A stretch of 64,000 nucleotides of DNA, taken from Synechococcales cyanobacterium C42_A2020_086. Lineage in GTDB: Bacteria > Cyanobacteriota > Cyanobacteriia > Elainellales > Elainellaceae. The notes beneath the pieces were generated by a model. The model ran no database searches and was not told the origin of the DNA. It was given only the letters and a program-made list of their open reading frames with translations. The stretch covers positions 434,001 to 498,000 of the forward strand of contig JACYLU010000015.1 in the NCBI GenBank assembly GCA_015272325.1, given 5' to 3'. Positions 1,124 through 38,455 of the stretch are shown here, piece by piece (position 1 is the first letter of the stretch; each line of letters opens with the position of its first letter). A program made the translations under genes and the position numbers.

Positions 1124-3013
1124 ATGCGTAAAGCTCTCCCTATCTCGCTTCAGAACGCTGCACTGACTCAGAAAACTCCGCTCCCTGCCCCAACGCCCAT
1201 TCGCGCCACGGGTGCTTTTGCTCTCATAGATAGCCTGAGACGGCACGGGGTTAAGCATATTTTCGGCTATCCTGGTGGGGCAATTCTGCCGATCTATGAT
1301 GAGCTTTACCGAGCAGAATCTGCAGGGTTTTTGCAGCATATTCTGGTGCGGCACGAACAGGGAGCAGCCCACGCAGCAGATGGATATGCTCGTGCTACGG
1401 GCAAAGTGGGTGTTTGTTTTGGCACTTCGGGTCCAGGCGCGACGAATTTGGTAACAGGCATCGCAACGGCTCAGATGGATTCGATCCCGATGATAGTGAT
1501 TACGGGACAGGTGAGCCGAGCGGCTATTGGCAGTGATGCCTTCCAAGAAACCGATATTTACGGCATTACTCTACCGATCGTGAAGCACTCTTATGTGGTG
1601 CGCGATCCTGCAGACATGGCTCGGATTGTTGCCGAAGCATTTCACATTGCCAGCACCGGCCGCCCCGGTCCAGTGCTGATTGATGTGCCGAAGGATGTCG
1701 GACTGGAAACCTGTGACTATGTGCCCGTAGAGCCAGGAACGGTGAAACTCCCCGGCTATAAGCCAACGGTAAAGGGGAACCCGCGACAAATAATTCAGGC
1801 GCTGAAGTTAATTCGTGAAGCAGAGCGACCGCTGCTCTACGTGGGTGGTGGTGCCATTGCCTCTGGCGCTCATGCCGAAGTTACTGAACTGGCAGAGCGG
1901 TACAATATCCCCGTCACTACTACCCTGATGGGCTTGGGGGTATTCGACGAGCATCATCCCCTGTCGCTGGGTATGCTGGGCATGCATGGCACAGCCTACG
2001 CAAACTTTGCCGTCACTGAGTGTGATTTGCTGATTGCGGTTGGGGCACGATTTGATGATCGGGTTACCGGTAAACTCGATGAGTTTGCCTCTCGTGCTAA
2101 GGTTATCCACATCGATATTGACCCCGCAGAGGTGGGCAAAAATCGCATTCCGGACGTGCCGATTGTGGGGGATGTCCGCCACGTACTGCTGGATCTACTG
2201 CAGCGGGACTCGGAAGATGGTCAGCCCAGTACATCTGGCCAAACTCAGGACTGGCTACAGCGCATTGAACGCTGGCGGCGTGATTACCCGCTCGTAGTAC
2301 CTTCCTATCCAGACTGCATCTCGCCTCAGGAAGTGATTGTGGAGATCGGTCGTCAAGCACCACATGCTTTCTACACCACCGATGTGGGGCAACACCAGAT
2401 GTGGGCTGCTCAATTCTTGACGATGGGACCTCGCCGCTGGATCTCTAGCTCCGGCTTGGGCACGATGGGCTACGGGCTGCCCGCTGCTATGGGTGCCAAG
2501 ATGGCACTGCCGCAGGAGGAAGTCATCTGCATCAGTGGAGATGCTAGCTTCCAGATGAACTTCCAGGAGCTAGGTACATTGGCGCAGTACGACATCAACG
2601 TCAAGACCGTCATTATTAACAATGGCTGGCAGGGGATGGTGCGTCAGTGGCAGCAAGCCTTCTATGAGGAGCGCTATTCGTCTTCTAACATGCAGACGGG
2701 CATGCCAGATTTTGTCAAGCTGGCAGATGCCTTTGGCATTAAGGGTATGGTTGTGCGAACTCGCGACGAGCTGCAAGCTGCTATTGCTGAAATGCTGGCT
2801 CATCCGGGTCCAGTGGTGGTTGACGCTCAAGTGAAGCGGGATGAAAACTGCTACCCCATGGTGGCTCCTGGGAAGAGCAACGCCCAGATGGTTGGTCTGC
2901 CAAAACCAGTTGAGCAGGAGTTTGTCTCAACTGAACCGATTACCTGCATCACTTGCGGCACTGAAAATGCTCCAGGCAACAAGTTCTGTCCAGAGTGCGG
3001 CGCTAAGCTGTAG
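1124..3013 (+). CDS. ilvB: Acetolactate synthase, large subunit, with C-terminal zinc ribbon
   Basis: Thiamine-diphosphate enzyme that condenses two pyruvates (or pyruvate and 2-oxobutyrate) in the first step common to valine, leucine and isoleucine synthesis. The 629-residue frame shows the catalytic-glutamate region ([18 protein letters not shown]), the GTSGPGATN loop, a central FAD-type domain with RFDDRVTGK, and the C-terminal ThDP-binding [12 protein letters not shown] with [11 protein letters not shown] downstream. The core is normal in length. The last ~22 residues add a four-cysteine motif, CITC then CPEC with ten residues between, which looks like a zinc ribbon and is not part of the enzyme fold. 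The ATG at 1124 has no good Shine-Dalgarno sequence, but no better start precedes the conserved domain. The small subunit ilvN is not in the window. Confidence 0.96.
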
Positions 3014-35267: not shown

Positions 35268-35963
35268 CTACGAGTTGCTGCGAGCAATGGCCTCAGCGGG
35301 CAGACAAAGGAGGTTGTCGCCGTAAGTGCGAATCATGCCGCGCTGCCGTAGTTTTCCCATCAGCCGGGTGACAGTGACTCGCGTGGAGCCAATCGCGCTG
35401 CCAATTTGAGCATGAGTTAGCGCCCAAGGCAGACAGTAGCCCTCTTCGCAAGGCTCACCAAATTCTTCGATGAGCAGAGTCAGGAAGCCCAGCAGTCGAT
35501 CGATTGTGCGGCGCTGCCCTAGGGTGCTCAGCCAAAGTAACTTCCGCTGATGCTGATAGCGGAACGCGTCCAAAACTTCTCGACGGAAGTGAGGCCAGTT
35601 GTCGAGATCGTGCCAGTACAGCCAGATCACCGAGGTTTGATCAACATGGGCAAAGCTTTGAATCGTGAAGGGCGACTGCGCCACAATTTCAAAGGGCTGT
35701 CCGGCTCCGACAAACCCCAGAAATGCTTCTTCAGAGTTGATGCGCGGCACTCGAGATGATCCTGAGGAGGTGGCAGTCACCTGGGCTTCACCGACTAATC
35801 GAATTGCTCCACGTTGAACCAGATACAGCAATCCGGCCCGGGTGGGCAGTTTCTCGTCCTTACCAAACGTGCGGCAGCGATAGTGTTCCTGCGCCCAGTC
35901 AGAGATCCGTTGCCAGGTCAAGAACGGGCGGGAAGTTTCAGAGGAAGAGGATACTGAAAACAT
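35268..35963 (-). CDS. Crp/Fnr-family transcription regulator
   Basis: About 231 residues from ATG 35963. The N-terminal cyclic-nucleotide-binding-like beta-roll (GLLYLVQRGAIRLVG, SEEAFLGFVGAGQPFEI) is followed by a dimerisation helix and a C-terminal winged helix: LTHAQIGSAIGSTRVTVTRL, MGKLRQRGMI. It resembles the NtcA/PamR-like regulators of cyanobacteria, but the cAMP pocket residues cannot be confirmed by eye. A longer frame to TTG 36050 adds 29 residues with no ribosome site and is less likely. It is convergent with the receptor gene, 37 bp apart. Confidence 0.88.
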   Translation of the reverse strand: MFSVSSSSETSRPFLTWQRISDWAQEHYRCRTFGKDEKLPTRAGLLYLVQRGAIRLVGEAQVTATSSGSSRVPRINSEEAFLGFVGAGQPFEIVAQSPFTIQSFAHVDQTSVIWLYWHDLDNWPHFRREVLDAFRYQHQRKLLWLSTLGQRRTIDRLLGFLTLLIEEFGEPCEEGYCLPWALTHAQIGSAIGSTRVTVTRLMGKLRQRGMIRTYGDNLLCLPAEAIARSNS

Positions 35964-36248
35964 AGGTAAAGTGCTGTTGTAATCATCAGTAGAGACGGGG
36001 GAATCTGCACTGAAGCCAGAGCGGTTAAGCCAAACTAGCTGCAATTCCAACTAGCCGATGAACAGGGGGAGGGAACCAGCCTAACCTTAACACTCTTTTC
36101 ACAGAGTAGATAAAATTACGGAGCTAAGCTGCGAACCAAATACCTTGAAACTATCTCCAGGCTACCTTTCTCTGATCAAAACATCATTTTACAGTCAAAA
36201 AAAATAATTAATTCTGCTGGGCTAAGGTCGCGTCGATCCAGCGACCAT

Positions 36249-37451: not shown

Positions 37452-37481
37452 CTGACAAATCCGAAGCAAGTCTGCTAGACT
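37452..37481 (+). promoter_or_regulatory. Promoter candidate for the small RNA
   Basis: CTGACA (37452-37457), 18 bases, then TAGACT (37476-37481). The predicted start near 37488 would give an RNA of about 73 nt ending at the terminator. Confidence 0.5.
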
Positions 37482-37487
37482 AACGGA

Positions 37488-37560
37488 CGTGTGAGGAGCG
37501 AACCAGCAAGGGCATCGAGACGAAACACGGTCAGTCGTCGGTGCCCTTTCTGATTTTTTT
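37488..37560 (+). ncRNA. Candidate small RNA with intrinsic terminator
   Basis: A compact unit: promoter-like boxes at 37452-37481, an unstructured 5' part, and a strong terminator in which AAGGGCA (37508-37514) pairs with TGCCCTT (37542-37548). An inner GACG/CGTC stem lies within it and a run of seven T follows. GTGTGAGGAG at 37489-37498 is the exact complement of CTCCTCACAC, the conserved core of the cyanobacterial sRNA Yfr1 as I remember it. The loop contains GAAACA, slightly like the Yfr2/Cyano-1 signature GGAAACA. It could be a trans-acting RNA, a Yfr1-titrating RNA or just a terminator with an upstream promoter. The 5' end is a prediction. Confidence 0.55.
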
Positions 37561-37714: not shown

Positions 37715-38455
37715 TTAGCCGTTGCAAGGCGTATAGCTGGCCACAACTCGCCCTGCTCCCCGATATTGGCGATAGTAAGCCTGGCTAACCGCATCGCCTT
37801 GGTTCGACAGCACATCAATGCCAATGCCATTGCGACCTTGGTCTTTGCCAGAGCTGTGAATATAATAGCCTTCCCCTAGCCACAGTCCCACATGGGTGGC
37901 GCGTTCCGACGACCCGAAGAAAACCAGATCGCCAGGCTGGATCTGCTCAAGGGTAATGGGCTGCACAAACGCTTCCTGCTGATAGGCGTCTCTGGGTAGC
38001 CAGATGCCGGCAGCCGCAAAGGCAGTCTGCATCAGCCCCGAGCAATCATAATTGGGACCAACCGTACCACCCCACAAATAGTGATTGGACTGGGCCATCG
38101 CTTGCTGGGTGTAGGCAATTACCTGAGGCAGCCGCGAGCGAATTTCGGCTTCTGACAGAGTTATGGCTCGATACGGCGTCTCGGCACTCTCCAGTAAATC
38201 CACATCCTCTGTAGGGAGCCAGGCCTGATAGTCATCCTCGCAAAGCTGTACTTGCAGGGCAGAGGTTGCCTGGGCTGTTGGCAGAATGCGGAGCTGGCGG
38301 CCAGCAACTGCTTGGGTCGCCAACCGTTCCAGGGTTGGAGAATCGTACAGATTCAGATTGGCATGACACTGATATTCCAAAGGTTGCCCGGTCACCAAGG
38401 CAGCCTGAATGGCTTGTAGAGATACCACGGCAGAGGATGCAATCAAAAAACGCAA
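37715..38455 (-). CDS. NlpC/P60 peptidoglycan endopeptidase with N-terminal SH3b
   Basis: Up to 246 residues. An SH3b domain (PLEYQCHANLNLYDSP, RQLRILPTAQATSALQVQL) comes first, then the NlpC/P60 catalytic domain: nucleophile Cys in GPNYDCSGLMQTAF, His in ATHVGLWLGEGYYIHSSG, and QPGDLVFFGSS. Order and spacing match the crystallised Anabaena and Nostoc gamma-D-glutamyl-diamino-acid endopeptidases, which cut the peptide stems of the cell wall. No ATG is available. TTG 38455 is the longest start; GTG 38395 or TTG 38398 would give a product beginning just before EYQC, as in those homologues, so the start is uncertain. Confidence 0.9.
   Translation of the reverse strand: MRFLIASSAVVSLQAIQAALVTGQPLEYQCHANLNLYDSPTLERLATQAVAGRQLRILPTAQATSALQVQLCEDDYQAWLPTEDVDLLESAETPYRAITLSEAEIRSRLPQVIAYTQQAMAQSNHYLWGGTVGPNYDCSGLMQTAFAAAGIWLPRDAYQQEAFVQPITLEQIQPGDLVFFGSSERATHVGLWLGEGYYIHSSGKDQGRNGIGIDVLSNQGDAVSQAYYRQYRGAGRVVASYTPCNG

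Follow-up and report, generated by a model that had tools for sequence, protein, structure and literature searches.

A Yfr2-family small RNA with a Yfr1-complementary 5′ end in the cyanobacterium C42_A2020_086

The locus and its small-RNA unit

The window, a 64-kb stretch of DNA from Synechococcales cyanobacterium C42_A2020_086, contains a small-RNA element of about 73 nt at 37488–37560 on the plus strand, its two ends placed by a promoter and a T-run. Directly upstream, outside the RNA and on the same strand, is a gene for a DALR-domain protein (Pfam PF05746; 36249–37292), while a gene for an NlpC/P60 protein follows downstream on the opposite, minus strand (37715–38455). The DALR-domain gene is a conserved neighbour: at 74 of the 100 named orthologous loci with enough flanking sequence it is the immediate upstream gene and shares the strand of the small RNA, from which it is 57–339 nt away, and its family forms the largest cluster of neighbours, represented at 29 of the loci in the neighbour comparison. 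The DALR-domain gene is itself adjoined upstream by a gene for a Crp-type regulator (HTH_Crp; 35268–36050, minus strand), whose product is 74–96% identical in many of the relatives collected and which keeps its place beside the DALR-domain gene.

The promoter consists of a −35 box CTGACA (37452–37457, plus strand) and, 18 nt further on, a −10 box TAGACT (37476–37481), together matching the consensus at 9 of 12 positions and giving a predicted transcription start at about 37488–37489. Of 147 distinct upstream regions from orthologues, 138 have a sigma-70-type promoter that matches at least 9 of 12 positions, with the TGACA core retained. Since the end of the −10 box lies 6–8 nt (usually 7) before GTGTGAGG in nearly all of these regions, the motif is placed at the very start of the transcript. 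Judged by consensus and conservation, then, the element has its own promoter, as first-pass annotation of the sequence had proposed in describing a complete small-RNA unit here.

Downstream of the 5′ motif, a long stem-loop (37504–37552, plus strand; −26.7 kcal/mol, z −2.75) carries the 12-nt loop GAAACACGGUCA at 37522–37533. A single unpaired G at 37537, after three base pairs, forms a bulge at a distance of 4 nt from the loop. Across 52 aligned sequences, 98.8% of the stem cells form standard pairs, two-sided changes occur at 8 of the 17 stem pairs, and 80 cells are changed on both sides against a mean of 22 in shuffled alignments; the lower stem thus covaries strongly. The stem is followed by seven T (37554–37560), a likely intrinsic terminator that is weakly conserved: orthologues mostly have 3–6 T in the 10 nt past the stem, so that the run seen here is the stronger one, and a simple terminator scan of the element reported none. 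The “strong U-run terminator” of the earlier description therefore applies to the seven T of this copy, and does not extend to its relatives.

Assignment to the Yfr2 family

No Rfam family matched anywhere in the 64-kb window at the gathering threshold. In a permissive search of 421 bases around the element, Cyano-1 (RF01701) matched over its full model with 33.0 bits (E 0.00057); a snoRNA match from the permissive Rfam search (E 5.9) was set aside as chance. On the basis of the sequences, we equate Cyano-1 with the Yfr2 family, since the model's consensus contains the motifs given for Yfr2 in the literature (PMC2662882). A default Rfam scan misses the element because 33.0 bits falls short of the curated RF01701 cut-off of 41 bits, which is a matter of curation and no biological feature. 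A subfamily-specific model, R1, scores the element at 98.3 bits, although the element's own sequence is part of that model.

Yfr2 RNAs have been described as having two conserved single-stranded stretches, a 12-nt loop and a bulge at −4 from the loop (PMC2662882). With the known members (Yfr2–Yfr5 of Prochlorococcus MED4, Yfr2a–c of Synechocystis and RF01701) the element shares its 5′ GUGUGAGGAG and the complementarity to Yfr1 that this brings, a long stem capped by the 12-nt GAAACA loop and interrupted by a bulge 4 nt away from it, a promoter of its own and a length of about 65–95 nt. Known Yfr2 RNAs are further characterised as abundant small transcripts, with high light or nitrogen starvation as inducers. 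The predicted 5′ end of the element, bearing (U)GUGUGAGGA, counts as unpaired: the motif is mostly single-stranded at its centre and, through a weak 3-bp helix, about half paired at its outer positions. The element is therefore an additional member of a known small-RNA family with a known partner. The first-pass annotation had remarked that the GAAACA loop “faintly” recalls Yfr2; the likeness is real but was understated, since the RNA is a Yfr2, and the known family was overlooked.

The 5′ motif, its Yfr1 partner and alternative readings

The Yfr1-pairing motif GUGUGAGGAG spans 37489–37498 on the plus strand, where its DNA form, GTGTGAGGAG, is the sole exact copy within the window. Across the whole genome there are 14 exact copies of this 10-mer, compared with 5 of a reversed control pattern, so complementarity by itself is no evidence. 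Twelve of the 14 lie outside the genome's two Yfr2 copies and are not Yfr2-like: one, at 16.7 bits with R1, comes from the strand opposite to Yfr1, and the remaining eleven reach at most 13.4 bits with R1 or were not reported by it. At L241 (around 1485–1512, minus strand), GTGTGAGGAG occurs in a ribosome-site-like place close upstream of an in-frame ATG in the 275-aa frame of a predicted secreted protein, whose mRNA is a possible Yfr1 target.

Conservation was assessed in 40 orthologous loci scoring below the cut-off that had been collected with the Rfam model, without use of the motif. The element is present at all 40, and 39 carry GTGTGAGGAGCGAACCA exactly; the fortieth (L072) has GTGTGGGGAG, a single A-to-G change that still allows a G–U pair with Yfr1. 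The first-pass annotation had named loss of the 10-mer alongside retention of the terminator as the pattern that would count against its reading. What is seen in the relatives is the reverse, with the 10-mer conserved and the U-run not.

The partner is encoded in the same genome: a canonical Yfr1 (RF01116, 57.4 bits) lies as a gene of its own between trxA and guaB on a different contig (L001). Its single-stranded CUCCUCACAC complements the element's 5′ motif exactly, which bears out the earlier statement that this end of the RNA matches the Yfr1 core, and GUUCACUCCUCACAC is found in nearly all Yfr1 sequences collected from the relatives. The predicted duplex comprises 10 bp over GUGUGAGGAG, a C·A mismatch at 37499 and a 4-bp extension, GAAC/GUUC, in which the element contributes GAAC at 37500–37503 (plus strand). 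With a plausible Yfr1 5′ end, the predicted fold leaves the Yfr1 core entirely single-stranded, and the net co-fold energy of the two RNAs is −20.4 kcal/mol, as against −14.7 with a rearranged 10-mer, a crude test. With an over-long 5′ end the net energy was only −11.5, matched by 115 of 500 shuffled Yfr1 sequences, which serve poorly as a control, the structure of Yfr1 being lost on shuffling. Pairing of the GAAACA loop with UGUUUC in Yfr1 was also considered. This idea was dropped, since UGUUUC is an arm of Yfr1's 5′ hairpin and its conservation is thereby already explained; nor does the co-fold pair the two.

Yfr1–Yfr2 pairing was proposed in 2008 (PMC2518516). In Prochlorococcus it was shown in 2019 with a pull-down, a GFP reporter and assays with RNase E: Yfr2 cancelled the repression of the reporter by Yfr1, and in the presence of Yfr1 it was protected against RNase E (PMC6778093). 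In Nostoc, gel shifts supported the pairing in 2020, accompanied by a sequestration model (PMC6974561). The titration of Yfr1 raised for this locus by the first-pass annotation thus agrees with what is already published for Yfr2. Because Yfr2–Yfr1 binding is published, the best reading of the element is as a Yfr1 sponge, perhaps acting on other RNAs through its loop. Transcription would start at, or one base before, GUGUGAGGAG, placing the Yfr1-binding arm at the very 5′ end of the RNA, to be followed by the stem-loop with its conserved GAAACA loop and then the terminator. Pairing with the cell's own Yfr1, through 10 bp, one mismatch and 4 bp, would most likely cover the invariant single-stranded core of Yfr1 and so free its mRNA targets, while the GAAACA loop probably touches other RNAs or a protein. 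We infer that the copy at 37488–37560 is expressed and has sponge activity.

The genomic setting bears on two other explanations. The element could be a 5′ leader or read-through cassette (an “actuaton”) of the downstream gene, an arrangement known in Synechocystis for Yfr2b and Yfr2c, two of its three copies (PMC2662882, PMC5386190); as the next gene here lies on the opposite strand, and the downstream gene, whether NlpC/P60 or a different protein, does so too in most of the relatives collected, we regard this as highly improbable. Hardly more credible is that the RNA arises by processing from the 3′ end of the DALR-gene mRNA and lacks its own promoter. Its conserved place downstream of that gene, on the same strand, would fit, yet the distance between the two is variable and the −35/−10 pair stands at a fixed spacing before the 5′ motif in those 138 of 147 orthologues.

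A more serious rival, though still one we consider unlikely, accepts the element as a Yfr2 but holds that its 5′ motif serves mainly mRNAs or a protein, with Yfr1 pairing secondary. It draws on the many targets besides Yfr1 recovered in a Yfr2 pull-down (PMC6778093) and on GGA motifs noted as possible protein sites (PMC2662882); against it, the match to Yfr1 is exact, both partners conserve it, and the GAAC/GUUC extension is kept as well. Taken together, these considerations leave us with high confidence that the element is a free-standing Yfr2-family small RNA whose 5′ end is a Yfr1-binding arm, most likely pairing with its own Yfr1.

A subfamily below the Rfam cut-off

The genome also encodes a second, diverged Yfr2 copy (L002, G000:C23:80519-80591, minus strand), which scores 48.8 bits with RF01701, above the threshold, and is linked to the element by R1 at 48 bits. 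This copy has GUGUGAGGAGU, giving 11 bp to Yfr1 without the GAAC extension, and its predicted net energy with Yfr1 (−20.5 kcal/mol) is about equal to that of the element. Most of 60 related genomes have two or more Yfr2 matches, typically one of about 72–77 nt that passes the cut-off and another of 68 nt that falls short of it, orthologues of the 68-nt subfamily mostly scoring 31–39 bits against the RF01701 threshold of 41.

A search of 244 genomes from the phylum with R1 gave matches in 92 at E 0.001. Among the matches listed, 78 score at least 71 bits and a second group at most 61.5 bits, and these two groups separate the subfamily from its paralogues. Twenty of the genomes that R1 does not match are listed (a further 132 being unlisted), and 19 of these, 1.6–3.0 Mb in size, come from a single family, presumably that of the marine picocyanobacteria. 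When named genomes were scanned with a pattern, so that the motif is invariant by construction, at least 118 loci were returned, including records from Nostoc, Calothrix, Crocosphaera, Oscillatoria, Leptolyngbya and Gloeomargarita. A nearly invariant subfamily, with a 10+4-bp arm and a conserved C·A mismatch, is spread across cyanobacteria outside the picocyanobacteria.

Within this subfamily the start of the stretch between the two motifs is nearly invariant (CGAACCAG), whereas it is unconserved among the eight Yfr2 members compared in PMC2662882. Since yfr2 genes have been described at unconserved loci (PMC6778093, PMC2662882), the positionally conserved subfamily appears to be an exception. 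Tentatively, and with rather less than even confidence, we suggest that most non-picocyanobacteria have two Yfr2 lineages, a DALR-linked, near-invariant, 10+4-bp dedicated Yfr1 sponge and a set of variable paralogues, with the C·A mismatch perhaps tuning the stability or cleavage of the duplex.

The pairing of Yfr2 with Yfr1 has been shown in other species by earlier work; what this locus adds to PMC2662882 and PMC6778093 is the position of the subfamily, its near-invariance, its extended pairing arm and the effect of the Rfam threshold, the Cyano-1 cut-off hiding an entire, highly conserved Yfr2 subfamily. A known circuit of two small RNAs is thereby extended to C42_A2020_086 and, if the subfamily's genomic place is fixed, it would offer a single deletable copy with which the Yfr1-sponge model could be tested outside Prochlorococcus.
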